Virus record (IMG/VR): IMGVR_UViG_3300042894_000116
Span: 1-32,163 of that record
From: a virus
Reading direction: 5' to 3' (one strand)
DNA length: 32,163 nt
Shown: in pieces, positions 1 to 32,163 of the stretch
How positions within the stretch are numbered: position 1 is the first letter of the stretch
Layout: each line of letters begins with the position of its first letter
Position numbers and translations under genes: made by a program
The notes under the pieces: model-generated
The model's database searches: none
Seen by the model: only the letters and a program-made list of their open reading frames with translations
What the model was told of the DNA's origin: nothing

Positions 1-48
1 AATTGGGTTGATCTTGGCCCATATCTTTCGGCGGCATTGTTTTTTCAT
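1..48 (-). CDS. N-terminal fragment of a conserved phage protein split by the window ends
   Basis: An ATG at 48-46 overlaps the stop of the upstream gene as ATGA and reads 16 codons (MKKQCRRKIWAKINPI) to the window edge. Collapsing the AATT at positions 1-4 with the AATT at 32160-32163 continues the frame without a stop into the gene at the right end, giving a 151-aa protein. Plain concatenation without collapsing AATT hits a stop two codons later. The K-W-x-x-I-N-P-I-x-H-A-I pattern across the join resembles the start of a hypothetical family I recall from Burkholderiales phages; that is memory, not a search. Function is unknown. Confidence 0.75.
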   Translation of the reverse strand, partial: MKKQCRRKIWAKINPI

Positions 49-374
49 TGGTGCGCCCTGTCTTGAAGTCGGTTGGTGGCTTCACGGGTTCTGAAAATCT
101 CAATGTCCAGCCGAGCCGACTCCATTTCCCACTTCAGGGTCTCTTCTGTCTCAATTGCTACAGCCAAACCCTTTAGCAGTTGATGGTAAGCAGGGTCAGC
201 GTATGCCTCACGCTCCTGTGCAGCAGCGGATTCAATGCCCAACTTTAGTGCGTCTTTCATCAACAACGCCCGTTTTATGCGTCTGAATTCTTCAAGATAT
301 ACCCGCTGCGCTTTGGCTTCGCCGTAGGCTGGCGCTTTGTCCCTGATGGTTTGGGCTGCTTGTTCTGGTTTCAT
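45..374 (-). CDS. Conserved phage hypothetical protein, helical
   Basis: Encodes 109 residues, rich in Ala, Glu, Arg and Lys and almost certainly all alpha-helical, with no membrane segment. The pattern R-V-Y-L-E-E-F (about residues 25-31) followed by A-A-A-Q-E-R-E-A-Y (about 50-58) resembles a hypothetical family I recall from many proteobacterial phages, whose function is not known. Its start overlaps the rusA stop by 4 nt (ATGA) and its stop overlaps the next ATG, so it lies inside a translationally coupled leftward operon of replication and recombination genes. Confidence 0.8.
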   Translation of the reverse strand: MKPEQAAQTIRDKAPAYGEAKAQRVYLEEFRRIKRALLMKDALKLGIESAAAQEREAYADPAYHQLLKGLAVAIETEETLKWEMESARLDIEIFRTREATNRLQDRAHQ

Positions 375-793
375 TCGGCCTCCATGACCATGACATCAAC
401 GCCAGCTTTTTCTGCGTACAGCTTTTTTACGTGCAAATCAATGACCTGGGTGTCATCCACAAAAATGACCCCGTTCATGGCATCAAGGTAGGTTTTTGCA
501 ATATTGTCGATGTCAGGTTTCTTGCATGGTTTCTCAGCGCCGCTTAAACAGGCTTCCCTGCGCTTTTTTGGGTAAGACTGTGGAATTGGAAGTCTTACGT
601 ACAAAAACACGCTCACGGGCGTTTTAAGAGGTTCTGTTGCACCTATTGCTTGTTTGGCAAAGGTGGCAATCATGGCCTCATAGGTCAAAGTCTGTTTGTC
701 GGTGTAAACCTTGGTGAAGTTGCCAACTCTGCTGAATCTAGGTCGGCCTTTGCCCTTTGGGTCACCCTGGACTTGAAAGTGTATTTGCATCAT
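371..793 (-). CDS. rusA: RusA-family Holliday junction resolvase
   Basis: A 140-residue protein with the RusA signature. The N-terminus has the basic G-x-P-x-x-K-x-R-P-R-F stretch (residues about 10-20). The acidic catalytic core is K-P-D-I-D-N-I-x-K (D94, D96), then D104 in L-D-A-M-N-G and D113/D114 in F-V-D-D. These aspartates match the metal-binding residues of the dimeric family that cuts four-way junctions. In a phage that probably packages from concatemers, it would clear recombination branches before packaging. Two ATGs (793 and 790) are possible; the first overlaps the upstream stop in CAATGATG. Length is typical for the family. Confidence 0.93.
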   Translation of the reverse strand: MMQIHFQVQGDPKGKGRPRFSRVGNFTKVYTDKQTLTYEAMIATFAKQAIGATEPLKTPVSVFLYVRLPIPQSYPKKRREACLSGAEKPCKKPDIDNIAKTYLDAMNGVIFVDDTQVIDLHVKKLYAEKAGVDVMVMEAE

Positions 794-953
794 TGTTCAT
801 TTCCGCAATCAAGGTATCGTGACCAGCCTGTCCACGTATTCTCAGAATGTCGGCTTTTACACCCGCCCACCAGTTCTGGGCGTTCTGCTTGCCAATCTCT
901 TTGACTTTCATCTTGTACCGCCCCTTCCATTCTCTCGCCTCGCATTGGGTCAT
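762..953 (-). CDS. Small hypothetical protein overlapping its neighbours in another frame
   Basis: From an ATG at 953 this frame gives 63 residues beginning MTQCEAREWKGRYKMK and containing W-W-A-G-V-K-A-D-I-L-R-I-R-G (about residues 28-41) and L-I-A-E-M-N. That composition looks like a real small phage protein, helical and basic. It runs 32 nt into rusA and overlaps the gene at 790-1056 in a different frame. The open frame upstream to 1016 looks like an out-of-frame reading of the neighbour. Either two genes overlap, or one base of change has split a longer gene. Function is unknown. Confidence 0.55.
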   Translation of the reverse strand: MTQCEAREWKGRYKMKVKEIGKQNAQNWWAGVKADILRIRGQAGHDTLIAEMNNDANTLSSPG

Positions 954-1056
954 GTAAGTCACCAGTGGCGAAAAGGGCGGCGCTGATTTGTTCAAAACTG
1001 AATTTTTGTCCATCACGTAATTTGTCCAAAATTTGGTTTGCTTGGTCTCTGTTCAT
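790..1056 (-). CDS. Small hypothetical protein, possibly the N-terminal part of a frameshifted gene
   Basis: The ATG at 1056 shares its A with the upstream stop (TGATG), and the stop at 790 overlaps the rusA start, so both ends are coupled. The first about 34 residues (MNRDQANQILDKLRDGQKFS then E-Q-I-x-A-A-L-F-A-T-G-D-L) look like genuine coding sequence. The rest is low in hydrophobics and lies opposite a better-looking reading of the same DNA in the frame at 762-953. I therefore trust the N-terminal third more than the tail. Function is unknown. Confidence 0.55.
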   Translation of the reverse strand: MNRDQANQILDKLRDGQKFSFEQISAALFATGDLHDPMRGERMEGAVQDESQRDWQAERPELVGGCKSRHSENTWTGWSRYLDCGNEQ

Positions 1057-1292
1057 CAATAAATCTCGTCTTTGTCGTCATACCACTGCACGATGTTTTT
1101 AGCTTGCAAAGCATCTGCAAGATTTTTCTTTGGCTTTAAAGTTTTACCGCCCCACTGATGTTCGCTACACATTGGTCTGTAACCCTCCATGTGAACTGAC
1201 CATCGTTTTCCACAACCAGGAACGCTGCAAAAAAGATGCCCTGTCTCGTCAATCTGTGTGTTTGTTTGCTGTTTGAAATTAGTTAGTGCCAT
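1056..1292 (-). CDS. Small putative zinc-binding protein
   Basis: Encodes 78 residues with a compact Cys/His array: C22-x4-C27, H34, C42-x2-H45. This spacing suggests a single structural zinc site, such as a treble-clef or ribbon. The C-terminus is charged (D-D-K-D-E). The start at 1292 overlaps the end of the DUF1376 gene by 14 nt and the stop is shared with the next ATG (TGATG). It sits between the replication protein and rusA, so a nucleic-acid role is plausible but not shown. It is too short and lacks the residues of an HNH nuclease. Confidence 0.75.
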   Translation of the reverse strand: MALTNFKQQTNTQIDETGHLFCSVPGCGKRWSVHMEGYRPMCSEHQWGGKTLKPKKNLADALQAKNIVQWYDDKDEIY

Positions 1293-2049
1293 GATATTTT
1301 CCCTCTACAATTTTTGCGAAGTTGCTTGGTTTGAGAATCCACTCGAGGTCTGCGGTAAACACACGACCATCTTTGCTGTTGACTTTTCCTGTCAGAAATT
1401 TTGATCTGCCAACATGCCTGAAAAAATCTGCCCACCATGTGAGAACATCATCGGCTTGGATCTGTTTGCCTTGTGAGAGTTCTGCCGCAACCTCTCGCCA
1501 TCGCTGTCTCAAATAACCTTGTCGTGCAGAATTCCAGACTTCGACCTTACGCAATGTAGGCAAATGCTGGTGGTAAAGGCCAATGACTTCTGTGTGTTTG
1601 CAATCAGGCAACTCCATCTCAGGTTCACCATCTGGTGGACATATATTGGTATTTCTTTGGTTATTGGTTATTGGTTTATGGTTATTAGTTGCCTTAGCGA
1701 TGGGTTCCGAGTCGGTATCCACTGGGTTACCCACTGGGTTCTTTTTCCTTCCACCAAGTTTCCCGTTTGCCCTGTTCTTTTCTGCCATAGCGTGATAGTG
1801 ACCAATCACCTCATGGCAGCGAGCATGAAACCAACCATCCTCATGTTTTTCAAACATATCGTTTAAGACATCCACAATGACAAAAGCCTCCACTCGGATG
1901 CGTCTGGCAACCCAGTGGGTATCAAGTGGGATTTTTTGCTCGGTGTCGTAGTACATATCAAGGAGCCTTCTATACGCAAGGTCTTCCTCATTTGAAAGGT
2001 GTGCAGTTGCACCTCGGTAATCACCGATGTTGAATGTGTAGTAGTGCAC
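1279..2049 (-). CDS. DUF1376 (YdaU-like) phage replication protein
   Basis: I place the start at the GTG at 2049, preceded by CGGAG seven bases upstream, giving 256 residues that begin V/M-H-Y-Y-T-F-N-I-G-D-Y. A GTG at 2103 in the same frame is possible but has no good ribosome site. Residues about 1-90 are the DUF1376 domain (L-S-x-x-E-D-L-A-Y-R-R-L-L-D-M-Y-Y), which in phages sits with replication genes. A low-complexity Asn/Pro/Thr linker follows. The C-terminal third has W-W-x-x-F-F-R-H-V then D-L-E-W-I-L-K-P-S-N-F-A-K-I, as in replisome organiser or helicase-loader type proteins. No helicase or polymerase gene is present, so it probably recruits host replication machinery. The linker DNA carries direct repeats. 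Confidence 0.88.
   Translation of the reverse strand: MHYYTFNIGDYRGATAHLSNEEDLAYRRLLDMYYDTEQKIPLDTHWVARRIRVEAFVIVDVLNDMFEKHEDGWFHARCHEVIGHYHAMAEKNRANGKLGGRKKNPVGNPVDTDSEPIAKATNNHKPITNNQRNTNICPPDGEPEMELPDCKHTEVIGLYHQHLPTLRKVEVWNSARQGYLRQRWREVAAELSQGKQIQADDVLTWWADFFRHVGRSKFLTGKVNSKDGRVFTADLEWILKPSNFAKIVEGKYHGTN
1655..1691. repeat. Degenerate 7-bp tandem repeats (ATTGGTT), iteron-like
   Basis: About five consecutive units of the form ATTGGTT (TTTGGTT, ATTGGTT, ATTGGTTT, ATGGTT, ATTAGTT) lie inside the linker-coding part of the DUF1376 gene. A unit of seven is not a multiple of three, so the repeat is conserved at DNA level and the protein sequence it encodes is not periodic. The tract is A/T-rich. 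Position inside the replication gene resembles the iterons within the lambda O gene. Confidence 0.6.
1717..1739. repeat. Pair of ACCCACTGGGT palindromes, third copy at 1910-1920
   Basis: ATCCACTGGGT (1717-1727) and ACCCACTGGGT (1729-1739) are spaced 12 bp apart. A third copy, ACCCAGTGGGT, lies at 1910-1920. The second and third are perfect odd-centred palindromes (ACCCA-N-TGGGT). All are in the DUF1376 gene near the heptad repeats. The 12-bp spacing also yields an N-P-V-G-N-P-V repeat in the protein, so coding constraint could explain part of it. Confidence 0.5.
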
Positions 2050-2109
2050 AAGGCATCTCCGCAAAACTCCCTGAAAAGAAACGTCAGCAGGTGGGGAGTT
2101 CACTTTTCA

Positions 2110-2129
2110 GCAAGGTAGCTACTCCTTGC
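2110..2129 (-). other. Hairpin between the Cro-like gene and the DUF1376 gene
   Basis: GCAAGG (2110-2115) and CCTTGC (2124-2129) form a 6-bp stem with an 8-nt loop in the 99-nt gap after the Cro-like gene. No run of T follows on the minus strand, so it is not a clear terminator. It could be a processing or translational control structure in the leader of the replication gene. Confidence 0.35.
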
Positions 2130-2148
2130 CTAGCTGGGTTTCAAAAAA

Positions 2149-2307
2149 TTATATCTTCACAAACCAGTCAGGTTTTATGACCATAAGCTGGTACAGCCGA
2201 CCTTTTGGCAACTGCTTCCATTGACAAACAGCACCTCTTGTCACACCGAGCAACCTTGCAAGTGCGACTTGTGAACCAGCTCTAGAAATGGCTTCATCTT
2301 TTGACAT
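2149..2307 (-). CDS. Cro-like helix-turn-helix regulator (52 aa)
   Basis: A 52-residue frame from the ATG at 2307: MSKDEAISRAGSQVALARLL, then G-V-T-R-G-A-V-C-Q-W-K as the recognition helix region, and L-P-K-G-R-L-Y-Q-L, ending in P-D-W-F-V-K-I. The order (A-x-x-L-G-V-x-x-x-A-V-x-x-W, then P-x-x-R-x-Y-Q-L) is that of short Cro/YdaS-type DNA-binding proteins. It is the first leftward gene next to the divergent control region, the usual position of cro, and a palindrome at 2342-2356 lies just upstream of its start. No partner CI repressor was found. The ribosome site is weak, so translation may be leaderless or poor. Confidence 0.8.
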   Translation of the reverse strand: MSKDEAISRAGSQVALARLLGVTRGAVCQWKQLPKGRLYQLMVIKPDWFVKI

Positions 2308-2340
2308 CGGTGCATTTTACTAAACAAAGTGGGCAATCGT

Positions 2341-2363
2341 ATTAGGGAAAGTCCCTATAAAAA
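2341..2363. promoter_or_regulatory. Operator-like palindrome O1
   Basis: ATTAGGGAAAGTCC starts at 2341. Inside it TAGGGA-AAG-TCCCTA is a perfect 6-3-6 inverted repeat, followed by an A-rich stretch. A near-copy (21 of 23 positions by eye) occurs at 3689. In both places the element lies exactly 37 nt, start to start, upstream of a -35 box. It is the best candidate for the binding site of the Cro-like protein encoded next to it. Confidence 0.6.
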
Positions 2364-2377
2364 TATCGCACCATTTA

Positions 2378-2405
2378 TTGACGGGTGTTTAGAACCCTAT
2401 ACAAT
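2378..2405 (+). promoter_or_regulatory. Early rightward promoter P1
   Basis: TTGACG (2378-2383) and TACAAT (2400-2405) are separated by 16 bp, a good sigma-70 match. The spacer and downstream bases (GTTTAGAA then CCTATACAATG) recur at two other places on the plus strand. It should drive the gene at 2453 and perhaps those beyond. Confidence 0.75.
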
Positions 2406-2414
2406 GTGACCATG

Positions 2415-2447
2415 CCCTAGCAATTTCGCACAAGGGTCTTTTTGGAG
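2415..2447 (+). promoter_or_regulatory. Leader element L1: CCC...GGG, U-tract, Shine-Dalgarno
   Basis: CCC at 2415-2417 and GGG at 2434-2436 flank a 16-nt interval with little internal pairing. TCTTTTT and GGAG follow at once, then the ATG at 2453. The stem is weaker than in the other copies, but the GGGTCTTTTTGGAG block is the same as in the leader at 6562. Confidence 0.5.
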
Positions 2448-2452
2448 AAATC

Positions 2453-2653
2453 ATGAAACCTCAGGAACTTTATAAAGGCATCAAGGTGGTAGCTACCGAC
2501 CTTCCAGATGCAACCGTTTACACGGTGGAGGCAGTCAACCAATTCTCGGTTGAACTGACCTATACGACAAGCAATGGTCAAACACTTCACGCTGGTGTTC
2601 TTGATGCTTGCTTTTTGAAACTCCCCACCATCCAACAACTCGCAAACGCTTAA
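2453..2653 (+). CDS. Small early hypothetical protein
   Basis: Encodes 66 residues from an ATG with GGAG eight bases upstream. It is soluble and mixed alpha/beta in appearance, with a Y-K-G-I-K-V-V-A-T-D-L start and alternating Val/Thr/Tyr segments suggesting a small beta barrel. No motif is recognised. As the first gene after the strongest early promoter it will be expressed first on infection, which often points to host takeover or anti-defence functions; that is inference from position only. Confidence 0.75.
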   Translation: MKPQELYKGIKVVATDLPDATVYTVEAVNQFSVELTYTTSNGQTLHAGVLDACFLKLPTIQQLANA

Positions 2654-2662
2654 TCAACCCAC

Positions 2663-2684
2663 GGGGCTTCGGCCCCATCTTTAG
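2663..2684 (+). promoter_or_regulatory. Leader hairpin L2 with UUCG tetraloop before the DUF932 gene
   Basis: GGGGC-TTCG-GCCCC (2663-2676) is a 5-bp stem closed by the very stable UUCG loop, followed by ATCTTT and AGGA ahead of the ATG at 2694. It could act as a weak terminator or attenuator between the first two early genes, or protect the mRNA. The T-run is short for a full intrinsic terminator. Confidence 0.55.
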
Positions 2685-2693
2685 GAAAAAATC

Positions 2694-3662
2694 ATGGCTC
2701 ACTTAATTGAAAACAATGTGATCACAGGCAAAGCAGAAATTGCTTACGCAAACAAAACTCCTTGGCATGGCCTTGGTCAACAGTTGACCCAGGATGCACC
2801 CATCGATGTATGGCGCACTGAGGCTGGACTTGATTGGGAGGCACAGGTCTCTCCTGTAATGTTTTGGCCTGAAGGTGTTGCTGCACCTCAAAAGGTTGCA
2901 AATAAAAATGTCATTTTCCGCAATGATACAAAGACCCCACTTGGTGTTGTTTCTGACCGATACAAAATTCACCAACCAGCGGATGTTCTTGACTTCTTCA
3001 ACACGCTTGTGCAATCGGCTGGCTTTACTCTTGAAGTTGCTGGTGCAATCAAAGGCGGCAAGCGCATCTGGGCATTGGCAAATGTCAACAAAGAAGCTGT
3101 GGTCTTAAATGATGATGCTGTGAAAGGCTACTTGCTTCTCAGCACATCATTTGATGGATCAGCAGCCACCATTGGTCAATTCACCAGCATTCGGGTGGTC
3201 TGCAACAACACCCTCTCGGCGGCTGATACTGAAGTTGCACCAAGCCGTGTGATGTTGACACATGGCACAGATTTTGATGCCAGCCTGATGCGGGAACGCC
3301 TCGGCATCATTGTTGGTGGCTTTGATGGAATGATGGACAAATACAGGTCACTCGCACGACAAGGCGTTTCAATGAAATACACACAGGATTTCATTAGCGA
3401 ATTATTCCCTGCCATCTTTGATCCACAAACAGAGAAGCTCAAAGAATCTAGAGGCTACAAACGTGTCTTGGAGTTGTTTGAGGGTGCAGGGATCGGCGCA
3501 TTTAATCAGGGTGTATACGGGACACGATGGGGCTTGCTGAATGCAGTCACACAATACATCGACCATGAGCGTGGCCATAACGTAGATACCCGCATGAACA
3601 ATGCATGGTTTGGCAATGGCAATCGACTGAAATCAGAGGCCGAATCACTTTTGCTGGCTTGA
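2694..3662 (+). CDS. DUF932 phage/plasmid protein
   Basis: A 322-residue protein of the DUF932 family. The opening carries the family's T-P-W-H-G-L-G motif (about residues 22-28). It continues with D-R-Y-K-I-H-Q-P (about 89-96) and S-F-D-G-S-A-A-T-I-G-Q-F-T-S-I-R-V-V-C-N-N-T-L (about 151-173), all typical of the family. Length is close to the family norm. DUF932 proteins are common on phages, plasmids and archaeal viruses; their biochemical role is not established, though they tend to sit near recombination genes, as here. AGGA plus a 6-7 nt spacer supports the start. Confidence 0.9.
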   Translation: MAHLIENNVITGKAEIAYANKTPWHGLGQQLTQDAPIDVWRTEAGLDWEAQVSPVMFWPEGVAAPQKVANKNVIFRNDTKTPLGVVSDRYKIHQPADVLDFFNTLVQSAGFTLEVAGAIKGGKRIWALANVNKEAVVLNDDAVKGYLLLSTSFDGSAATIGQFTSIRVVCNNTLSAADTEVAPSRVMLTHGTDFDASLMRERLGIIVGGFDGMMDKYRSLARQGVSMKYTQDFISELFPAIFDPQTEKLKESRGYKRVLELFEGAGIGAFNQGVYGTRWGLLNAVTQYIDHERGHNVDTRMNNAWFGNGNRLKSEAESLLLA

Positions 3663-3688
3663 TATAGATGGGGCTTTGGCCCTGTCTT

Positions 3689-3711
3689 ATTAGGGAAAGT
3701 CCTAATAAAAA
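3689..3711. promoter_or_regulatory. Operator-like repeat O2
   Basis: Second copy of ATTAGGGAAAGTCC, starting at 3689 and differing from O1 at two of 23 positions. The arms TTAGG and CCTAA remain complementary. It lies 37 nt, start to start, upstream of the -35 box of P2, the same as at P1, which argues for a functional unit. Confidence 0.6.
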
Positions 3712-3725
3712 CAGCGCGAAACCTC

Positions 3726-3753
3726 TTGATGAATGTTCAGAATCCTATACAAT
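3726..3753 (+). promoter_or_regulatory. Early rightward promoter P2
   Basis: TTGATG (3726-3731), a 16-bp spacer and TACAAT (3748-3753). The bases from the spacer to the start of the transcript (AGAATCCTATACAATGCACA then TATGCCC) match the copy at about 6534-6564 almost base for base. It should drive the block from 3798 through the recombination genes. Confidence 0.75.
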
Positions 3754-3762
3754 GCACATATG

Positions 3763-3788
3763 CCCCGAACTTCTTGGGGTCTTTTTAG
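3763..3788 (+). promoter_or_regulatory. Leader hairpin L3 with U-tract and Shine-Dalgarno
   Basis: CCCC (3763-3766) pairs with GGGG (3776-3779) across a 9-nt interval. TCTTTTT (3780-3786) and AGGA follow, then the ATG at 3798. This has the form of a small intrinsic terminator placed directly on a ribosome site. Confidence 0.55.
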
Positions 3789-3797
3789 GAAATCAAA

Positions 3798-4028
3798 ATG
3801 GCAAAATTCATCAAAACTCAATTTGTAAGAACCAAACACGGCTCTCTTTTTGATCGTGGATCGGCAGATTTTTACTATGGCCGCCAACCAAATCCTCATT
3901 GGTGGCCTTTAAGTACTGGCCGAGGCGAAATGATTGTTCAACTGAACAAAAAAGAAATCGCTGAATACATTGCCGGGTACGAGGAAAACGAAAACCTCGG
4001 TCACAAAAAAGGTTTTGACAGCCTTTAA
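3798..4028 (+). CDS. Small early hypothetical protein
   Basis: Encodes 76 residues, soluble and basic at the N-terminus. It shows F-Y-Y-G-R (about residues 25-29), P-H-W-W-P (about 33-37), and a C-terminal helix with E-Y-I-A-G-Y-E-x-N-E-N-x-G-H-K-K. The aromatic-rich first half suggests a small beta fold. The pattern resembles short hypothetical proteins of other phage early regions, but no function is known to me. It is the first gene after promoter P2. Confidence 0.8.
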   Translation: MAKFIKTQFVRTKHGSLFDRGSADFYYGRQPNPHWWPLSTGRGEMIVQLNKKEIAEYIAGYEENENLGHKKGFDSL

Positions 4029-4037
4029 TTTTTTAAT

Positions 4038-4058
4038 CCCGCAAGGGTCTTTTTAGGA
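4038..4058 (+). promoter_or_regulatory. Leader hairpin L4 with U-tract and Shine-Dalgarno
   Basis: CCC-GCAA-GGG (4038-4047) is a 3-bp stem with a GCAA (GNRA-type) loop, followed directly by TCTTTTT and AGGAG ahead of the ATG at 4065. No promoter copy precedes this leader, so the leader element travels independently of the promoter. Confidence 0.55.
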
Positions 4059-4064
4059 GCAACC

Positions 4065-4244
4065 ATGACAGCACTCGAAAACTTCACACAGCTAGCCGCT
4101 AAATACAGCGACAACCAAGCTAATCGCCTCGCCTACCACGTAGGACTTCTTGAGGCCCACATCCGACATCAAGATCAACTTCTGGAAACATTCCAGCAAG
4201 AGCTTGACCAGATCATCATTGAAATGCACAAGGAGCAAGCATGA
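4065..4244 (+). CDS. Small helical hypothetical protein (59 aa)
   Basis: The frame from the ATG at 4065, six bases after AGGAG, gives 59 residues beginning MTALENFTQLAAKYSDNQAN. It is strongly helical with a heptad-like second half (L-L-E-A-H-I-R-H-Q-D-Q-L-L-E-T-F), so it may form a coiled coil. The stop overlaps the next ATG as ATGA. No known family is recognised. Its place directly before the ERF block suggests a co-factor of recombination, but that is only context. Confidence 0.75.
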   Translation: MTALENFTQLAAKYSDNQANRLAYHVGLLEAHIRHQDQLLETFQQELDQIIIEMHKEQA

Positions 4245-4522
4245 AAATCAAACTTATAGCGCATATCCATTACAGGAAATATTCTTGGGAGGAAAAGGGC
4301 GAGTTCCAACTTTGGTATGCCGCTTTGCCAGATGACGATAGCCGCACCTACATTGGGGAACAAGAGGTAGAAATTGAAGTCCCTGATAACTACGATCCAC
4401 GACCAGCGCAAATTGCTGCATTGATTGCTCAAAAGCAAAAGGTCATGGGCGACTATCAAAAGACGGTCGCAGAAATTAACAACCGCATCAGCAACTTACA
4501 AGCACTGGAGTACACAGCATGA
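4241..4522 (+). CDS. Hypothetical protein upstream of the annealase
   Basis: Encodes 93 residues in two parts. The first about 60 are beta-rich with many aromatics (Y-S-W-E-E, Q-L-W-Y-A-A-L-P-D-D-D). The second is a helix with regularly spaced Ile/Leu ending N-N-R-I-S-N-L-Q-A-L, likely a coiled coil. Start and stop both overlap neighbours by 4 nt (ATGA), so it is coupled to the ERF gene. Function is unknown; a partner of the recombination module is possible. Confidence 0.75.
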   Translation: MKIKLIAHIHYRKYSWEEKGEFQLWYAALPDDDSRTYIGEQEVEIEVPDNYDPRPAQIAALIAQKQKVMGDYQKTVAEINNRISNLQALEYTA

Positions 4523-5079
4523 AGAACATTGCCACCGCACTGGTCAAGGCACAGCAATCCTTTGGCCCTGCCCTGAAAAGCAGCACCAACCCGCACTTCC
4601 GTAGCCGTTACGCAGACCTCTCGGCTTGCGTTGAGGCAGTCATTGAGGGACTGAATGGGGCTGGCATTGCTCTTGTCCAGCGCACCAGCGAGGACACCAC
4701 CGGGGTCACAGTTGAGACTGTGTTTATCCATGAGTCAGGCGAGATGCTGGAGTGCGGCAAGCTGCACGTACCAGCAGCCAAACAAGACCCACAAGGATAC
4801 GGCAGCGCCCTGACATACGCTCGGCGCTACAGCCTGATGGCAGCTTGCGGCATCGCACCAGAAGATGACGATGGCAACGCAGCCACACGCAAAGCCGTAC
4901 CGACTCCAGACATCACAGACCATCTGGCTGCAATCGATGCCAGCGCCAACAGCGAAGAATTGGCAAAGGTCTACAAAGACGCACTAGCAGCTTGCGAAGG
5001 CAATCAGGCGTTACAAGCCAAAGTTATTGCAGCAAAGAAGGCTCGGGTTGAGCGTGCCAAACAGGAGAAAGCAGCATGA
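4519..5079 (+). CDS. erf: ERF-family single-strand annealing protein
   Basis: A 186-residue ERF superfamily protein. The N-terminus has A-L-V-K-A-Q-Q-S-F-G-P-A-L-K, then S-R-Y-A-D-L-S-A-C (about residues 29-37). The family's hallmark G-S-A-L-T-Y-A-R-R-Y-S-L (about 94-105) and the D-D-D-G-N segment follow. ERF proteins bind single strands and anneal them during phage recombination and genome circularisation. It is paired with a YqaJ exonuclease two genes downstream, the normal two-component arrangement. The C-terminal about 50 residues are helical and variable, as in relatives. Confidence 0.93.
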   Translation: MKNIATALVKAQQSFGPALKSSTNPHFRSRYADLSACVEAVIEGLNGAGIALVQRTSEDTTGVTVETVFIHESGEMLECGKLHVPAAKQDPQGYGSALTYARRYSLMAACGIAPEDDDGNAATRKAVPTPDITDHLAAIDASANSEELAKVYKDALAACEGNQALQAKVIAAKKARVERAKQEKAA

Positions 5080-5420
5080 GTTACACCCCTGAACGCTGGC
5101 ACTTTCAAGACAATACACGCTATCAATCGCCATGGACAACACACCCTTACAGCATTACCACAAGGAAAACCGGGGTTCATGGCACAACGATTGCCAACAT
5201 CCCCAACCGCAGGACAGTGCCTGATGCTGAACAAAGGGCTAATGCCATGCTGATTGCCCATGCCCCTGAGATGCTGGAACTCTTGCGAACATTTGTAGGT
5301 TGGTATTCAAACAAAGAAAAGGACAATTTCCACAAGGTTATGCCATTCAAAAATCAGCCGCCTGAAATCCAGGCTGCAATGAAGTTGATCGAGAAAACAA
5401 CAGGGGAATCGTATGTCTGA
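5076..5420 (+). CDS. Hypothetical protein with an A-N-A-x-L-I-A-x-A-P-E motif
   Basis: Encodes 114 residues. The middle carries E-Q-R-A-N-A-M-L-I-A-H-A-P-E-M-L-E-L-L (about residues 51-69), a helix I recall from many small phage proteins in proteobacterial phages. The region before it looks like a beta sheet (W-T-T-H-P-Y-S-I-T-T). The function of such proteins is not known. It overlaps erf by 4 nt and the exonuclease by 8 nt, so all three are made together. Confidence 0.8.
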   Translation: MSYTPERWHFQDNTRYQSPWTTHPYSITTRKTGVHGTTIANIPNRRTVPDAEQRANAMLIAHAPEMLELLRTFVGWYSNKEKDNFHKVMPFKNQPPEIQAAMKLIEKTTGESYV

Positions 5421-6048
5421 AGAACAAGGAACCGAAAGCTGGTTTGCCAACCGCTTGGGCAAAGTCACCGCCAGCCGCTTGGCTGATGTGCTTGCCAAGA
5501 CAAAAACTGGTTACAGCGCCAGCCGTACCAATTACATGACGCAGCTTGTTCTGGAGCGCATCACACAGACTAAGGCCGAGTCATACAGTAATGCAGCAAT
5601 GCAGTGGGGTACAGAGCAGGAACCCTTTGCTCGGGCTGCGTATGAGGCGCATACGGGGCAAATGGTCGAGGAAGTAGGATTCATACCTCACCCCGACATC
5701 GATGCTGCTGGAGCCTCGCCTGATGGCCTGGTGGGTGATGATGGCATGGTGGAGATCAAGTGCCCGTCATCCAGCACAGCCCTTGAAGTGTGGCTGACCC
5801 ACTCACAAGGCGGCAACCCTGTTGATGCCAAGTATTACGCCCAAATGCAATGGCAAATGCGCTGCGCTGATCGGTCATGGTGCGATTACGTTGTCTTTGA
5901 CCCCAGGATGCCAGCCAAGGCCCAACTGTTTATTCACCGAGTCGAACGCAATGCCGAATGGCTGAAGATTGCTGAAGATGAAGTCACCACGTTTTTGGCA
6001 GAAGTAGATGCCAAAGTCACCGCCCTGAAAACCATCATTGGAGAATGA
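5413..6048 (+). CDS. YqaJ-type viral exonuclease (PD-(D/E)xK)
   Basis: A 211-residue nuclease of the YqaJ / lambda-exonuclease group. Visible motifs are W-F-A-N-R-L-G-K-V-T-A-S (residues 10-21), W-G-T-E-Q-E-P (E68, E70), S-P-D-G-L-V (D104), V-E-I-K-C-P (E114, K116) and Y-Y-A-Q-M-Q-W-Q-M (about 142-150). Together they form the PD-(D/E)xK active site with its upstream Glu and downstream Gln. It should resect 5' ends to expose single strands for the ERF annealase. Length is typical. It overlaps both neighbours, 8 nt upstream and 4 nt downstream. Confidence 0.93.
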   Translation: MSEEQGTESWFANRLGKVTASRLADVLAKTKTGYSASRTNYMTQLVLERITQTKAESYSNAAMQWGTEQEPFARAAYEAHTGQMVEEVGFIPHPDIDAAGASPDGLVGDDGMVEIKCPSSSTALEVWLTHSQGGNPVDAKYYAQMQWQMRCADRSWCDYVVFDPRMPAKAQLFIHRVERNAEWLKIAEDEVTTFLAEVDAKVTALKTIIGE

Positions 6049-6302
6049 AAATGTCCCGTATCAGCAAGGAAATCTCGTGCATTACAGGCGAGTACACAAA
6101 CGCCAACGGAGAGCGCAAGAAGCGTTATCAGCGAATTGGCTCAATCATCAACACCAAAAACGGTGAAATGCTCAAGCTGGATGTTATCCCGCTGCGTGAA
6201 GGTGGTTGGGATGGTTGGGCATACATCAATGACCCGAAGCCGCAAGAAGAGCGCCAAGAGCGCCGCCCAGCAGCATTTGATGACAGCGACATACCCTTTT
6301 AG
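6045..6302 (+). CDS. Putative single-strand DNA-binding protein, phage type
   Basis: Encodes 85 residues. The body has a small OB-like pattern (I-S-C-I-T-G-E-Y, R-Y-Q-R-I-G-S-I-I, M-L-K-L-D-V-I-P). A flexible Pro/Glu/Arg stretch leads to the acidic tip D-D-S-D-I-P-F. That ending is the hallmark by which SSB proteins recruit partners. It follows the exonuclease and overlaps it (ATGA), completing an ERF-exonuclease-SSB set. It is much shorter than bacterial SSB (about 170 aa), so assignment rests on the tail and context. ATG codons at 6045 and 6051 are both possible. Confidence 0.7.
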   Translation: MKMSRISKEISCITGEYTNANGERKKRYQRIGSIINTKNGEMLKLDVIPLREGGWDGWAYINDPKPQEERQERRPAAFDDSDIPF

Positions 6303-6305
6303 GCC

Positions 6306-6512
6306 ATGAACGCCGCCAGCATTGAAAAGAGCGAACGCCTTGGGCGTGTTCTTGATCTGCTGTCTCAGGGTGGGGACTTCTCCACCCTGGACATCATCAA
6401 ACAAGCCAACGTCTGCGCCGTGAACAGCATCGTGGCTGAACTCAGACAAAACGGCTTTGACATCAACTGCCAGCGCCGGGGCGACAAGTGGTTTTATTGC
6501 CTTGAAAAATAA
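6306..6512 (+). CDS. Small winged-helix DNA-binding protein
   Basis: Encodes 68 residues. It shows L-G-R-V-L-D-L-L (about residues 12-19), S-T-L-D-I-I (26-31), then A-V-N-S-I-V-A-E-L-R as a recognition helix (about 38-47) and G-x-x-I-x-C-Q-R-R-G-D-K-W-F-Y as a beta wing. This is the pattern of compact winged-helix proteins found in phage early regions. It is the last gene before promoter P3 and follows the SSB-like gene by 3 nt, so it may regulate the arm, but no binding site is known. Confidence 0.75.
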   Translation: MNAASIEKSERLGRVLDLLSQGGDFSTLDIIKQANVCAVNSIVAELRQNGFDINCQRRGDKWFYCLEK

Positions 6513-6524
6513 TTTGTAACATCG

Positions 6525-6552
6525 TGCATACTTGTTTAGAATCCTATACAAT
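6525..6552 (+). promoter_or_regulatory. Early rightward promoter P3
   Basis: Third copy of the promoter block: GTTTAGAATCCTATACAATG then CACATATGCCC (6534-6564), identical to P2 except for about one base. The -10 is TACAAT (6547-6552). The hexamer at the -35 position is TGCATA, clearly weaker than in P1 and P2, and the operator-like repeat is absent. It should drive the accessory genes from 6587 to 8415. Confidence 0.6.
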
Positions 6553-6561
6553 GCACATATG

Positions 6562-6580
6562 CCCTTTGGGTCTTTTTGGA
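6562..6580 (+). promoter_or_regulatory. Leader hairpin L5 with U-tract and Shine-Dalgarno
   Basis: CCC-TTT-GGG (6562-6570) followed by TCTTTTT and GGAG, then the ATG at 6587. It has the same arrangement as the leaders at 2415, 3763 and 4038, with the shortest loop. Confidence 0.5.
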
Positions 6581-6586
6581 GAAACC

Positions 6587-6730
6587 ATGAAACATCACAA
6601 ATACCATCAACACTATCAAGTCAAAGCCGCCAAGCTGCACGGGCGTGCCGAGGCTGCGCTAGACCTGATTACAGCACTCGTCATCGGCATTGGTCTTGCA
6701 GCCGTTTTGGTTTATGGGTGGACGTTATGA
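6587..6730 (+). CDS. Small single-pass membrane protein (47 aa)
   Basis: The start is the ATG at 6587 behind GGAG; an upstream in-frame ATG at 6524 lies before the promoter -10 and is not used. The protein has a His/Lys-rich N-terminus (MKHHKYHQHYQVKAAKLHG), then one hydrophobic span of about 20 residues (L-I-T-A-L-V-I-G-I-G-L-A-A-V-L-V-Y). This predicts an inner-membrane protein with the basic end in the cytoplasm. Such small early membrane proteins can act in exclusion or host control; nothing specific is recognised. The stop overlaps the next ATG. Confidence 0.7.
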   Translation: MKHHKYHQHYQVKAAKLHGRAEAALDLITALVIGIGLAAVLVYGWTL

Positions 6731-6858
6731 CTGATTACGATGATCTGCCTGATGAATACTACGAAGACAAGTTTGAGCGCCAGCGTCACAGGCGTGAGAT
6801 GAACAGCGAGTTGGGCAATCCTGAATTTGAACTTGACGAGGAGACAAGCGATGATTAA
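6727..6858 (+). CDS. Small acidic hypothetical protein (43 aa)
   Basis: From an ATG overlapping the previous stop (ATGA), 43 residues starting MTDYDDLPDEYYEDKFERQR. It is very acidic at both ends with a basic R-Q-R-H-R-R centre, with no hydrophobic core, so it is likely disordered or a DNA mimic or adaptor. No family is recognised. The stop overlaps the next gene start by 8 nt, supporting real coding. Confidence 0.65.
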   Translation: MTDYDDLPDEYYEDKFERQRHRREMNSELGNPEFELDEETSDD

Positions 6859-8209: not shown

Positions 8210-8415
8210 ACTGCTGCAATGATTTTGGAGACTGCAACCAAGGCCGCAACTGCCCGGTGCGTGTGGCTAAGTACAAACCCGTGATGCGGGCTGCTGAACC
8301 TTTGCCGCCAAACGTCTGGTGTCAGCAGCTTCGATACTTGGCCGAGTGGGTGCTGCTTGGCATTGTTGGAGTGGTGTGGCTGACCTTTTTGGCGGCTTGC
8401 GTGTACTTGGCTTAA
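8206..8415 (+). CDS. Cys-rich small membrane protein
   Basis: Encodes 69 residues. The N-terminus has C-C-N-D-F-G-D-C-N-Q-G-R-N-C-P-V-R (residues 3-19), a four-cysteine knuckle likely to bind metal. The C-terminus is a hydrophobic span of about 25 residues (W-V-L-L-G-I-V-G-V-V-W-L-T-F-L-A-A). The topology would place the Cys knot in the cytoplasm next to the membrane. It is the last rightward gene, and its stop overlaps the stop of the leftward endolysin gene in TTAA. Confidence 0.78.
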   Translation: MNCCNDFGDCNQGRNCPVRVAKYKPVMRAAEPLPPNVWCQQLRYLAEWVLLGIVGVVWLTFLAACVYLA

Positions 8416-8924
8416 GCAGTCATGGTGGCGGCTACGGTTTGCACGGCAGCAACACGGCGGCCCCAGCCCTTGCCAAATGTACCCCAATGCGGCAAGTCCA
8501 TCAGGAAGGACAGGCGGCGCTTGGCGTAGTCCTCAACTAACTCGGCAGGGTTTATGGCGGAAACTGCTGCCAGTGTCTTGAGGCCAATGCCACCGTCTTG
8601 CTCAACGCCTACGCAGCCTTGCAGCCACTTTGCAGCACGCCCTGGGCCACTGTTAACTGCTGCGTCAAAGACAGCGTAATCTACGCCAGACGGCAGGTCG
8701 TCACCCTTCACTTTGTCCCAATACTTGGCTTTGTACATGGGGCCAACAATCTCAGGCGTCAGGCCACGCATGGTCTTTTCATCAACCTCGTGACCGACCC
8801 ACTCCTCCCAGACCTTTTTGGTCACGCCCAGGTTGGTCATGCCGCCCGGATCCGCAGGGTGATTTACAAACCCACCTTCATGGTGAAGGACGGCTTCAAG
8901 TGCGGATTCGAAGTTGTCCTTCAT
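8412..8924 (-). CDS. Endolysin, glycoside hydrolase family 108
   Basis: A 170-residue lysozyme of the GH108 type. The start carries the catalytic Glu in H-H-E-G-G (E16), then P-A-D-P-G-G-x-T-N-x-G-V-T (about residues 23-35). A W-D-K-V-K-G-D-D-L-P-S-G-V-D-Y segment (about 69-83) and a C-terminal PG-binding-3-like region (W-L-Q-G-x-x-G-V-x-Q-D-G, then R-R-L-S-F-L) follow. It should cut the peptidoglycan glycan strand at lysis. No signal peptide is seen, so release depends on the holin. Its ATG overlaps the holin stop. Confidence 0.93.
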   Translation of the reverse strand: MKDNFESALEAVLHHEGGFVNHPADPGGMTNLGVTKKVWEEWVGHEVDEKTMRGLTPEIVGPMYKAKYWDKVKGDDLPSGVDYAVFDAAVNSGPGRAAKWLQGCVGVEQDGGIGLKTLAAVSAINPAELVEDYAKRRLSFLMDLPHWGTFGKGWGRRVAAVQTVAATMTA

Positions 8925-9412: not shown

Positions 9413-9414
9413 AA

Positions 9415-10426: not shown

Positions 10427-10427
10427 C

Positions 10428-10673: not shown

Positions 10674-10716
10674 GATGCTCTCCTAGTATTGCCCAAGAAT
10701 CCACTTAGGCTTTGGT

Positions 10717-27478: not shown

Positions 27479-29539
27479 TTATCTGACAACAGGCTGCACA
27501 ATTTGTCCACGCAATATTTCTTGCACGGCCTCGGCGTTTGTCAAAGCCATATTTTGTGCAGTTTCATCGACTTTGCCCAATGTCTCCAGCGTCTGTGCAC
27601 GCTTCAACTCGGCGCTTGCCACAGTCTCCACGGTATCAGCACGGGCCTTGGCTGCTTTTGCCGTTGCCTCCTCTGCTGCTGCTTGGAGGTACATGGCGTT
27701 CGGGTCTTGCGGCTTGCCTTGCATTTCAGCCATGAGTTCTTGGGCTTCGTCATCGGTGGGCTGCACCACACCCATGCGGAGCAACTTCTTACGGAAGTAA
27801 GCATTGGCATCACCCACGCCCTCGCCCTCCATGTTCATCATCGCCATTGCAGTCAGCACTTGCGCTGTCTCTGGGTCGGTGGTGATCTGGAGCATCCCGG
27901 TCAACGCCCGAACAGTGGCTGCACGCTTGCTGCTGCTGGATGGGCCAACCTCGGCAACCACATCAAAGGTGGCGGTGCTGAGATCGTTTTCCATGACCAT
28001 TGCACCCGTTTCGGTGTCAATCATGGGCTTCATCAGCTCGACCACGCTGGACTCGCCAGTGGGCGCAATGGTCTTCATCTTGCGCTTGTCTTCGGTGTAG
28101 ATGTCCCGAGCCATGCTTAACCAGATCTCGCCGCAGCGTTTCATGCCCTTGGCAAAGTTGCTCATGTAGATGAACGTCTGCATATCCACACGGGTCTGGA
28201 TCATCTCCACAGCTTTACCAGACACGCCCGACACCATCTTGTCAGCGCCTTGCGGGTTGCCCAGGATGTCTTGCATATCCTGTTCGGTGATCTGCAACAG
28301 CGCAGCCATAGCCGGGGGAATGGATGCCGACTTGGTGTAAGCCAATGGGCCAGCCGCCTGGGTGTTGCCATCAGGCCCAGTAATTGGGTTAATCAGCAGA
28401 TACGGGTAATCCCGCAGGTTATCTTCAGCCCACATAAGCTGATGACCCGCCACTTGCTCGGGGGTCATAATGGGCTTCTCAATGCTGGACAAGGCTGAGA
28501 TTTCGCCCAGCTTGGACAGCTGCATATTCTTCAGGCGTTGGGCATCTTTCGCCAATCTGACAGCGCCCATGCAGCGTTCGATGTTGTCCACGAACCAGCG
28601 TTTGCCGTACACCACCACAATCGGGATGCACTTGCCAGCGATGTAACCAGCATCCTCCAGCACTTTGCCGCCCGACATGATGTATTTGCGGACACGCATA
28701 CGCTTGACCCGCTTCTGCCGAACTTCCCGTGTGCCGATGGCCATCAGGGTTTCTTCAAGCGTTTCATCGTTCTCAAAGTCTTTGGCTGTGTAGCGTTCCT
28801 CAGTCCCGTCAATGGCCTCAAAGATGCGGATTGTCTCGGTCTTTTCCTCGACTTTGTAGTATTCAGCCACAAACACTACATCAGGCGTTGCCCAGTCAAA
28901 CTCGTACTGGTGAATGATCTTAGGCCAATCCGTTGGGTCATCGTTGTAAATTTCTTTGTAGCTCTCGCGGGTCATGCTGGTGACCACAAAGGCAAACTTA
29001 GCGTCTGACTTGTCCTGGCGCTTGGCGTTCAGGTCAAAGAACACCGAGCTGTCAGCATCAAAGATGGGTTCCATGCGGATGCGCTGTCGGTCATCCTCGT
29101 CATTCTCTTCGTCTTCGTAGACTGTCCGCAGCCGCCATGCGCCAATGCCGCCGCCCACGGCTTCCTCAAAAGCGTTGTCGTAGGCTTCATCAGCAACAGA
29201 GGCTTGTTCGTCAGCACGGTACAGGCCATCGCAGACTTCTGCCAGCCTTGCATTGTCTGTGCCATCTTTGGACACGTAGTCCACAGTGATGCGGTTGTTG
29301 CGGTATTCGTTGACGATGCGAATGACCGCCAGCATGATCTTGTTGACCTCAAACTTGGGCTTGTTCTCGTATTGATCCCACAGTGGGCCTTCCCACTGAG
29401 CGCCGCACAGGGAGTAGAACCGCCTGTCTTGTAAGCACTGTAGGCGCTCGTCCCGCAGCGCAGTCTGGATGTCATTGAACTGGCGCAGGGCTTCGGTGTG
29501 TAGATTCGAGAGCCGTTGGTCGTTTGAGATTCTTGCCAT
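27479..29539 (-). CDS. Portal protein, P22 gp1-like
   Basis: A 686-residue protein (P22 gp1: 725). It starts with M-A-R-I-S-N-D-Q-R and has F-E-V-N-K-I-M-L-A-V-I-R-I-V-N-E-Y-R-N-N-R (about residues 83-103), a typical stretch of P22-type portals. Further on it has Y-N-D-D-P-T-D-W-P (about 197-205), V-V-V-Y-G-K-R-W-F-V and the long helical crown/barrel region near the end. It forms the dodecameric DNA channel at one vertex. It lies between TerL and scaffold. Confidence 0.92.
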   Translation of the reverse strand: MARISNDQRLSNLHTEALRQFNDIQTALRDERLQCLQDRRFYSLCGAQWEGPLWDQYENKPKFEVNKIMLAVIRIVNEYRNNRITVDYVSKDGTDNARLAEVCDGLYRADEQASVADEAYDNAFEEAVGGGIGAWRLRTVYEDEENDEDDRQRIRMEPIFDADSSVFFDLNAKRQDKSDAKFAFVVTSMTRESYKEIYNDDPTDWPKIIHQYEFDWATPDVVFVAEYYKVEEKTETIRIFEAIDGTEERYTAKDFENDETLEETLMAIGTREVRQKRVKRMRVRKYIMSGGKVLEDAGYIAGKCIPIVVVYGKRWFVDNIERCMGAVRLAKDAQRLKNMQLSKLGEISALSSIEKPIMTPEQVAGHQLMWAEDNLRDYPYLLINPITGPDGNTQAAGPLAYTKSASIPPAMAALLQITEQDMQDILGNPQGADKMVSGVSGKAVEMIQTRVDMQTFIYMSNFAKGMKRCGEIWLSMARDIYTEDKRKMKTIAPTGESSVVELMKPMIDTETGAMVMENDLSTATFDVVAEVGPSSSSKRAATVRALTGMLQITTDPETAQVLTAMAMMNMEGEGVGDANAYFRKKLLRMGVVQPTDDEAQELMAEMQGKPQDPNAMYLQAAAEEATAKAAKARADTVETVASAELKRAQTLETLGKVDETAQNMALTNAEAVQEILRGQIVQPVVR

Positions 29540-29563: not shown

Positions 29564-30787
29564 CTACCATTTGTTTATGGTCGGCAATGGCGTGAAGTTG
29601 ATCGTCTTGGTCACTGCTGCACGCCTGACACCCTCGCAAGCATATCGCAGTGCGTCAATCACATGGTTCTTTTTGTCCTCCAGCACGGGCAGGATTCTAC
29701 CCGTCAGCGGGTCTGACTTATAGCTGTAAAGGCTCAGTTCGTCAATGGTGTGTATACAACGAGGATGCACCACGATGTCGTAGTTCTTCAGGAACTCAAT
29801 GCCTTCCTCGACAGACTTCGGGCCTTTTACGGCAGTCATAATCTTTGGAAACCCGTTGCGCTTCATATGGCTGATGGTCTCAGGCCTGGCTGAATCTGCC
29901 ACGATAGGCCAGCGTTCGCTTTCAGGCACTTGCATAAAAAGCTCTGGCGTGTTGATGATTTCACACCCCACCATGTAGGCTTCATAGTCAATGTAGAGCG
30001 TGCGCCCAATGATATGGCAGCGCACCAGCACTGTCGGGTCAATCGAAAAGCCCCAATCAGCGCCAAGTCGGTGGATGGCATCTGGCGGTGCTTCAAAATC
30101 GTCAATCTTCCAGTTCTTAAACACCCTGGCGTTGCTGTTCCGCAGGTACTGGCCCATCCAAACGTGCTGGTATTTGTCAGGGTCCCGCCGCTTGTCGTAC
30201 TCCATTTCGTCTTTAAGGACTTGCGGGAACCACGGGTTTTCGCCAAAGTTCACCTTGATGACCTTGGCATCTACAGGCGGCTCTGGGCCTCTTAAAAGAA
30301 AATCCACAGGGTCGCTTTGCTGTCTCGGGTTCCATGTAAACCACAGTTCACTGTCAGGCTTGCGGATGGTTGGCCTTAAAAGGTCAAGGCTGGACTGACT
30401 CAGGCTTTGGGCTTCCTCTACCCAAGCGCAGTCGTAGCCCTCCAGCGACTTGATGCTGTCGGCTGTGTGGTTCTGCATACCCTGAAAGATGATGGCCCCA
30501 TCGCCCTTCTTGGACTTGATGACCGAATCCTGGACTTCAAAGTAAGCGCCAGCGTTCATGGCCTCAATCTTGGTCTCCAGCAGACGCTTTACCGATTGGT
30601 TCAGTGATTTCTGGATTTCACGGACGCAAACGCTGCGCCGCTTCTGATCCATGATGTGCATCTCAATCATAAGTTCGGCAAACATATGGGACTTGCCAGA
30701 GCCTCGGCCACCCCATGCGCCTTTGTAGCGTGATGGCTCCAGCAGCGGTAGCGCCCACTCAGGGGTTTGGATTTGCAGGGTGCTCAA
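29564..30787 (-). CDS. terL: Terminase large subunit
   Basis: A 407-residue packaging motor of the PBSX/XtmB type. Walker A is G-G-R-G-S-G-K-S (residues 26-33). Walker B with its catalytic Glu is Y-D-C-A-W-V-E-E-A (118-126). The nuclease half has G-A-D-W-G-F-S-I-D-P (first Asp), V-A-D-S-A-R-P-E and H-V-I-D-A-L-R-Y-A (last Asp). It cuts concatemers and drives DNA into the shell with TerS. It starts 4 nt inside terS. The type does not itself prove headful cutting, but P22-like heads and the apparent circular map make that likely. Confidence 0.95.
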   Translation of the reverse strand: MSTLQIQTPEWALPLLEPSRYKGAWGGRGSGKSHMFAELMIEMHIMDQKRRSVCVREIQKSLNQSVKRLLETKIEAMNAGAYFEVQDSVIKSKKGDGAIIFQGMQNHTADSIKSLEGYDCAWVEEAQSLSQSSLDLLRPTIRKPDSELWFTWNPRQQSDPVDFLLRGPEPPVDAKVIKVNFGENPWFPQVLKDEMEYDKRRDPDKYQHVWMGQYLRNSNARVFKNWKIDDFEAPPDAIHRLGADWGFSIDPTVLVRCHIIGRTLYIDYEAYMVGCEIINTPELFMQVPESERWPIVADSARPETISHMKRNGFPKIMTAVKGPKSVEEGIEFLKNYDIVVHPRCIHTIDELSLYSYKSDPLTGRILPVLEDKKNHVIDALRYACEGVRRAAVTKTINFTPLPTINKW

Positions 30788-31224
30788 GGCTTAATCACCA
30801 CTCGCTCAATGCGATGAACCAACGGGTTGACGGGATCTCCTGAGACTTCAAGTTTCTCGCCGTACTTCTTGGGGGCGAGCTTAGACAGAATCCATTTGCG
30901 AGAATCGACCTGTAGTCTGTGCTTTTGGATAGCTTGCCAATCTTTTTTGCCATCGCCTGTCAGTGGCACTTCTTGGTCGCTCAACTCCAGCACCTCATTG
31001 GCAATGCGCTCAATTAGGTCTTCTCTCGCGTGTGCGTAGCTCTCCGCAAGTTTAACGTCAGTTTCAAGCCATCGCATAAACGTGCTGTTTGGGACTCCGG
31101 CGGCCTCGCACGCTTTGAAGCAGCTCAGTCCGCTTCTCATTCCTTGGAGTACAGCTTGACTGATACCGTCTTTGTCTCTCTCTGGCTTTGCTGGCTTATC
31201 GGGGTTTGCCTTCTTTGTAGCCAT
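30784..31224 (-). CDS. terS: Terminase small subunit
   Basis: The ATG at 31224 overlaps the stop of the small secreted protein (TGATG), giving 146 residues. A Lys/Pro-rich start (MATKKANPDKPAKPERDKDG) is followed by a helix-turn-helix (F-K-A-C-E-A-A-G-V-P-N-S-T-F-M-R-W-L, about residues 34-51) and an oligomerisation part (V-D-S-R-K-W-I-L-S-K-L-A-P-K-K-Y-G), common in phage small terminases. It recognises the pac site and feeds DNA to TerL. An upstream TTG start at 31254 lies inside the secreted-protein gene and is less likely. Confidence 0.88.
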   Translation of the reverse strand: MATKKANPDKPAKPERDKDGISQAVLQGMRSGLSCFKACEAAGVPNSTFMRWLETDVKLAESYAHAREDLIERIANEVLELSDQEVPLTGDGKKDWQAIQKHRLQVDSRKWILSKLAPKKYGEKLEVSGDPVNPLVHRIERVVIKP

Positions 31225-31352
31225 CAGAACCCACCGTTTCGAGTGGTTGTGCAAGTGTAGCTACCATCCGAATTTTTGACGCATCGGGTGGTTGTCTGGG
31301 CTTGGGCTGCAAAAGACAGCAGCAGGGCTGCGATTGTGAATAGGGTTTTCAC
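31224..31352 (-). CDS. Tiny secreted protein (42 aa) upstream of terS
   Basis: A GTG at 31352 with AAGGAG five bases upstream gives M-K-T-L-F-T-I-A-A-L-L-L-S-F-A-A-Q-A as a clean Sec signal peptide (cut after A-Q-A at residue 18). A 24-residue mature part rich in Thr follows, with two cysteines (R-C-V-K-N-S-D-G-S-Y-T-C). The stop shares its A with the terS ATG. A disulphide in the periplasm is likely. There is no lipobox, so it is not an outer-membrane lipoprotein. It could act on the host surface or on periplasmic enzymes; no family is known to me. Confidence 0.72.
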   Translation of the reverse strand: MKTLFTIAALLLSFAAQAQTTTRCVKNSDGSYTCTTTRNGGF

Positions 31353-31363: not shown

Positions 31364-31395
31364 AAAAAACAGGGTCGAGCAACAAAGCCCAACCC
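31364..31395 (-). terminator. Intrinsic terminator or attenuator before the late genes
   Basis: On the minus strand GGGTTG (31395-31390), a 12-nt loop and CGACCC (31377-31372) form a 6-bp stem (one G-U), followed by TG and six Ts (31369-31364). The Shine-Dalgarno of the secreted-protein gene follows at once, so the U-tract leads into translation start, as in the early leaders. It sits between replication-side genes and morphogenesis genes and could be the point where late transcription is gated. Confidence 0.55.
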
Positions 31396-31425
31396 CAAAC
31401 GCTGGCAACTGCTTTGTCAGCGTAT

Positions 31426-31755
31426 TCATTCTATCTCAGGCACGGGAATGTCAACAGGCCATCGCCCACTGTCAGTCAGCACCTGAACCGTTTTGTAATG
31501 CGCCACCTTCCAAGCCAATTGCCTTTCGGCCTTAGACCATTTGGCTCCCTGGTCTATGTCGTAGTGGCACGATTGACATAAAGCGGCTGTGTATTCGTCA
31601 CTGGCCTTGATCGATTTGCCTTTGCCGCCCCATTGCGTCCAGTTTGAGTGTGCTGCCTGAACACAAACGCCTGACCCGCATAACTGGCAGTCCAAACTGG
31701 CAACCAGCTTCAACAGCTTTTTGCTTCTGACATATGTGTGCTTTTGAAACATCAT
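31426..31755 (-). CDS. HNH-like zinc protein
   Basis: Encodes 109 residues. It has R-S-K-K-L-L-K-L-V-A-S-L-D-C-Q-L-C-G (C23, C26), Q-A-A-H-S-N-W-T (H36) and A-A-L-C-Q-S-C-H-Y-D-I-D (C60, C63, H64). The two Cys pairs fold a zinc ribbon and the H...H pattern resembles the HNH-like recombination proteins (DUF968-type) found near phage replication genes. It may be a structure-specific nuclease for replication or recombination intermediates. Coupled upstream by ATGA overlap. Confidence 0.8.
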   Translation of the reverse strand: MMFQKHTYVRSKKLLKLVASLDCQLCGSGVCVQAAHSNWTQWGGKGKSIKASDEYTAALCQSCHYDIDQGAKWSKAERQLAWKVAHYKTVQVLTDSGRWPVDIPVPEIE

Positions 31756-32163
31756 ATGTGCACCACCCTTTGATGGTTTGACCTGACATTGTTGTTACTT
31801 TTGTCAATCATTCGCTCAAACTCTGAACAACTTATGCTTTGCCTTTGGAGGTCATGCAAAACGCAAAGTTCTTTCAGATACTTGATGCCAGCTCCCGACA
31901 AGCCCATCTTTTTGGTTGCTTCATAGCGTTTGGCGGCTGCTTCCATTTCCGGCTGCACCAATGCACACAATGGCAACACCTCAATGCCAATACCATTGTG
32001 ACCCATCGTTTCTGACACGTTTAACACGTGCACCAGCGTAATCCAATCTTGCACTGTCCCAACCCCTTTAACCATGCTGTCAATGGCGCTGAGTTCGTGC
32101 ATTCTGAGTTTGTTTAGCTTTTCCTCGCTGGCAACCATTGCCCCTGTAATGGCGTGTTCAATT
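31752..32163 (-). CDS. C-terminal part of the conserved phage protein split by the window ends
   Basis: Reading from the right edge the frame is open from the codons E-H-A-I-T-G-A onward; an internal ATG at 32138 gives 128 residues, but the true start is likely the ATG at 48 across the join. Features are L-N-K-L-R-M-H-E-L-S-A-I-D (early), V-Q-D-W-I-T-L-V-H-V-L-N-V-S-E-T-M (middle) and H-D-L-Q-R-Q-S-I-S-C-S-E-F-E-R (late), all helical. The whole 151-aa chain resembles a conserved Burkholderiales phage protein of unknown role. It overlaps the HNH-like gene start by 4 nt. Confidence 0.82.
   Translation of the reverse strand, partial: IEHAITGAMVASEEKLNKLRMHELSAIDSMVKGVGTVQDWITLVHVLNVSETMGHNGIGIEVLPLCALVQPEMEAAAKRYEATKKMGLSGAGIKYLKELCVLHDLQRQSISCSEFERMIDKSNNNVRSNHQRVVHI

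Follow-up and report, generated by a model that had tools for sequence, protein, structure and literature searches.

The Shigella phage Sf6 and the Salmonella phage P22 are P22-like podoviruses that package headfuls of DNA from concatemers, and their headful cuts are imprecise. The DNA analysed here is the whole of the IMG/VR virus record IMGVR_UViG_3300042894_000116, a stretch of 32,163 nucleotides that we refer to as the window. Its likeness to these phages extends across Sf6-type small and large terminase subunits (TerS and TerL), the P22 portal, the P22-type coat and scaffold, the tail accessory and stabilisation proteins, Erf and a P22 Cro-like repressor, with the portal and coat-type head genes assigned by PF16510, phrog_283 and phrog_648.

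The window differs from Sf6 and P22 in several respects. Its genome measures about 32 kb, its early block holds a RecE-like exonuclease and a DUF932 gene, and its replication block is separated from the late genes by no more than a terminator and a small HNH gene. It also yielded neither a tyrosine integrase nor an S24-type CI repressor, the pair of genes taken as the mark of a temperate lambdoid or P22-like phage: PF00589 and PF00717 found no match in the window at E 0.1 in searches whose controls worked. Since a Cro-like gene is present and neither of these was found, the phage may be strictly lytic.

A further point of comparison is provided by MW202867.1 (Caudoviricetes sp. isolate ct3Oc712, Manatee Spring; 34,522 bp, deposited as circular), whose TerL, portal and coat are 80%, 69% and 68% identical to those of the window. 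Both place Cro and replication genes, then terminase and structural genes and finally lysis genes on one strand, with the early genes opposite. MW202867.1 differs in its replication gene, in the adenine methyltransferase that adjoins its terminase genes, and in giving no tblastn match to ORF151, the gene on which much of the present analysis turns.

The contig ends and the joined reading frame

Inspection of both ends established that the window starts with AATTG and finishes with CAATT; end repeats longer than 4 bp, whether exact or inexact, were not found in it. End joins were tested by translation at every overlap from k = 0 to k = 7; the sequence itself permits only k = 0 and k = 4. The former runs into an immediate stop at the seam (...INPIN and then the stop), while the latter reads MKKQCRRKIWAKINPIEHAITGAM... 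and yields a protein of 151 aa, in frame with 31752-32163, which we call ORF151. Translation of the joins thus bears out the earlier note, which had described an open frame from the ATG at 48 when the shared AATT is counted once, and a stop without the 4-bp overlap.

How far such a pattern might arise by chance was gauged from 175,168 pairs of unrelated window positions treated as ends. At least 4 bp were common to 0.7% of these pairs, and a match of at least 4 bp accompanied by an open frame of at least 150 codons over the join was seen in 0.39% (about 1 in 260), which makes the end pattern alone suggestive, not proof. One relative (G022) also has a 4-bp end match; neither of its joined frames resembles a natural gene, and its match is for that reason taken as chance. 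Four bases alone would therefore not prove closure. The CheckV paper accepts contigs as closed on a direct terminal repeat of at least 20 bp (PMC8116208), a rule for detecting complete contigs rather than a property of the molecule, and the window, with 4 bp only, falls short of it.

Table 1. Coordinates of features at the seam, in the leftward gene series and in the packaging region (window positions)
Feature	Position	Strand	Basis or remark
Left-hand AATT of the 4 bp duplicated where the contig was opened	1..4	.	Single copy in seam-crossing relatives
ORF151, first 16 codons (ATG at 48)	1..48	-	Joined frame; start codon shared by homologues
Gene immediately upstream of ORF151	45..374	-	Stop overlaps ORF151 start (ATGA); contiguous with ORF151 in relatives
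RusA-like Holliday junction resolvase	371..793	-	Family matches
Replication initiation/primosomal protein	1279..2103	-	Family match
P22 Cro-like repressor	2149..2307	-	PF14549
Endolysin (GH108), closing the leftward series	8412..8924	-	Family matches
P22-like portal protein	27479..29539	-	PF16510, E 5e-154
Terminase large subunit, Sf6 gp2-like	29564..30787	-	Family matches; PDB 4idh, E 5.7e-49
Terminase small subunit, Sf6 gp1-like	30784..31254	-	PF20901; PDB 3hef, E 2.9e-14
Intrinsic terminator-like hairpin and T run	31364..31397	-	In 7 relatives; position constant, hairpin sequence differs
HNH endonuclease directly downstream of ORF151	31426..31755	-	Family match
Promoter-like TTGACA-15-TAGAAT where the HNH gene ends	31428..31454	-	Consensus match; spacer shorter than usual; -35 inside coding sequence
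ORF151, remainder, continuing from position 1	31752..32159	-	PHROG 20828; complete at many IMG/VR loci
Right-hand AATT of the duplicated 4 bp	32160..32163	.	End overlap and seam-crossing relatives

Relatives that carry the junction

A search of IMG/VR with the joined 151-aa protein identified 13 contigs in which it is encoded whole or almost whole. Seven of these 13 possess an ORF151 homologue that is 95-98% identical and starts at the ATG at 48, and not at the internal ATG at 32138, the start that the earlier note had named as telling against the join. The joined DNA aligns in one piece over the seam in 12 of the 13, all of them contigs other than the window, and the four seam bases occur once in each seam-crossing relative; the seven close relatives have either AATT or GATT there, and distant ones vary more. 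An exact seam-spanning 29-mer, GGCGTGTTCAATTGGGTTGATCTTGGCCC, lies inside IMGVR_UViG_3300042868_002847 (12,606 bp). Sequences from other samples thus contain the intact junction, which constitutes proof beyond the end pattern.

The relative IMGVR_UViG_3300042462_000011 (G005; 32,972 bp) carries the window's map in permuted form. Its path follows the window from about 10.5 kb to 32.16 kb, then crosses the seam and runs from position 1 to about 10.65 kb. The ends of G005 themselves overlap by 369 bp at 92% identity, giving a unit length of 32.6 kb (32,972 minus 369). G005 and IMGVR_UViG_3300042868_002847 share about 84-98% DNA identity with the window over most of their matching parts, and their gene order through the seam is identical. 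They differ from it in being opened elsewhere and in their mosaicism, which lies between the HNH gene and TerL and also in the tail and early genes.

Another record, IMGVR_UViG_3300046028_000627 (47,430 bp), likewise crosses the seam and continues to 12.3 kb. It is probably a chimera of two phages, because its first 13 kb or so (1-12975, read as L015) carry a second, distant TerS (28%) and portal (27%); this part meets the remainder of the record close to a repeat of 993 bp (91% identical) in the tailspike region. As this record is probably chimeric in part, G005 carries most of the permutation argument. Given that the seam is intact in relatives and that G005 is opened elsewhere, the map is circular, with a true length of about 32,159 bp. 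The crossing contigs and G005 accordingly support the core of the earlier note, namely adjacent ends, a single AATT, a circular or permuted genome and this same length; for the window's own molecule, closure is a conclusion that we infer from relatives that are about 95% identical.

Of 20 long, more distant relatives, 10 have ends that repeat each other exactly over 121-127 bp, and three more have inexact end repeats. The break positions of these relatives are scattered relative to ORF151 (Rayleigh p about 0.2), and assemblers that break circular templates leave repeats of fixed, odd length (CheckV paper; PMC8116208). Their large terminases are mostly of another type, and so their end repeats do not speak for the packaging of the window phage.

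ORF151 and its neighbours

Closing the seam places ORF151 between rusA and the HNH gene, and the 4-bp ATGA coupling to the gene upstream recurs in neighbouring genes. With the ends joined, the Cro-like gene, the replication, RusA, ORF151 and HNH genes, and the terminase, head, tail and endolysin genes follow one another on the minus strand, and no gap between them exceeds 109 nt. A profile search of IMG/VR recovered 159 relatives of ORF151, and nearly all of the best 80 of the 159 match residues 1-151. Two relatives were found in bacterial genomes, one in a Betaproteobacteria MAG and one in Quisquiliibacterium transsilvanicum, where ORFs that we read as rusA-, ORF151-, small terminase- and large terminase-like stand in the window's order.

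The predicted structure of ORF151 is all-helical (mean pLDDT 81). Neither Pfam nor the PDB returned a match to its sequence, the predicted fold found no match in the PDB at E 0.001, and a search of a phage collection by protein (tblastn) gave no match; the fold search matched only uncharacterised phage or viral proteins. ORF151 is a member of a large phage family that is uncharacterised.

Among relatives, the region from the HNH gene to TerL is a hot spot of replacement. At one locus (L003, 6406-7059) it holds an ORF between TerS and TerL that reads as a DNA methyltransferase; at another (L006, 5971-8134) ORFs that read as ParB-like and as a different small terminase, together with a 312-aa ORF, stand beside a 98% identical TerL. 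The window also encodes, on the minus strand at 31225-31352, a 42-aa ORF with a signal-peptide-like start (VKTLFTIAALLLSFAAQAQ...), which is present in relatives and overlaps the start of the small terminase gene. Secondary alignments of relatives further disclosed a 70-bp stretch that occurs twice on the plus strand (2337-2406 and 3685-3754) and surrounds an early promoter-like site, TTGAYG-16-TACAAT.

Promoter-like and terminator-like elements ahead of the late genes

A promoter-like site followed by a terminator-like hairpin (31454-31364) lies in the window after the replication block and ahead of the terminase genes. The -35 element TTGACA is present in seven relatives. The hairpin falls into two sequence types among the seven close relatives, and its T run continues into the ribosome site of the first late gene. 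An extra hairpin, whose sequence is common to relatives, lies after the promoter-like site and before the terminator. The terminator-like hairpin was the top entry in a scan of that half of the window; the total number of such sites in the scanned region equalled the shuffled expectation, and the argument for a terminator is consequently one of positional conservation.

Judged from its sequence, this arrangement looks like a promoter with a terminator behind it, which transcription would have to read through for the late genes to be expressed. The presence of both elements at one position in relatives argues against a single uninterrupted transcript, and leftward transcription is probably not one unbroken unit. 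The leftward operon that the earlier note drew from the Cro-like gene to the endolysin is hence upheld as a gene order, and not as a single transcript.

It is tempting to consider whether ORF151 might be an undescribed late-gene antiterminator, since it precedes the late promoter-like site and the terminator, as lambdoid Q genes do. The family is without a Q-like match in sequence or fold. We regard this putative role as improbable.

Discussion

Taken together, our findings make it highly probable that the window is a complete Sf6/P22-like genome, the circular map of which was opened arbitrarily by the assembler inside ORF151, leaving 4 bp duplicated. The breakpoint is an ordinary assembly break and not the end of a fragment. 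A de Bruijn assembler working on a closed circle would not be expected to leave an overlap of 4 bp, and we take the 4-bp rather than k-mer-length overlap to be a detail of assembly or trimming.

Given the Sf6-type terminase genes and the P22 portal, the map is most likely circular because permuted DNA is packaged by the headful. The terminase would package headfuls from concatemers, yielding terminally redundant, circularly permuted virion DNA and, from this, a circular map. Packaging series are described as running along concatemers (PMC7617512). Alternatively, intracellular circles or concatemers may have been sequenced, and these could be the source of a circular map. Clustering of contig ends at a packaging start was also considered and is not convincing: 8 of the 45 contig starts listed lie within the first 500 bp upstream of ORF151, compared with 1-7 in the other 500-bp bins.

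The ends might instead be the physical ends of linear virion DNA, such as 4-nt cohesive AATT ends or a fixed terminase cut. Exactly 4 bp are common to both ends and form a palindrome, as a staggered cut followed by fill-in would be expected to produce. Such a cut would, however, split a conserved gene, and the palindrome is not conserved, the seam being AATT in some relatives and GATT in others. Moreover, close relatives are opened at other places, the ends of relatives' contigs do not cluster strongly upstream of ORF151, and the packaging genes are of the Sf6/P22 type, known for imprecise headful cuts. We thus consider physical ends very improbable.

Restriction by an enzyme of the MfeI type (C^AATTG), with the product cloned or filled in, seems to us just as improbable. 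The join does recreate CAATTG, which led the earlier note to think this origin conceivable, and MfeI ends after fill-in would give AATTG...CAATT. Nevertheless, the window contains a further seven CAATTG sites and 115 AATT sites, all of them uncut, so that only a very partial digest would fit; the sequence is, moreover, an IMG/VR virus record and, as far as can be seen, not a cloned insert. Coincidence, whereby the ends of a linear fragment match by 4 bp and in frame by chance, draws on the rate among unrelated end pairs and on the example of G022, and it is in effect refuted, its probability being negligible, by the same junction standing intact in 12 other contigs, one of them with the exact 29-mer.

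Recognition of the window as a circular map opened by assembly lifts the record from what might have been a fragment to a complete genome of about 32.16 kb, and closure restores one gene together with the correct gene order around the terminase. More broadly, a complete phage genome can escape rules that look for end repeats of 20 bp or more, even where its relatives show it to be closed.
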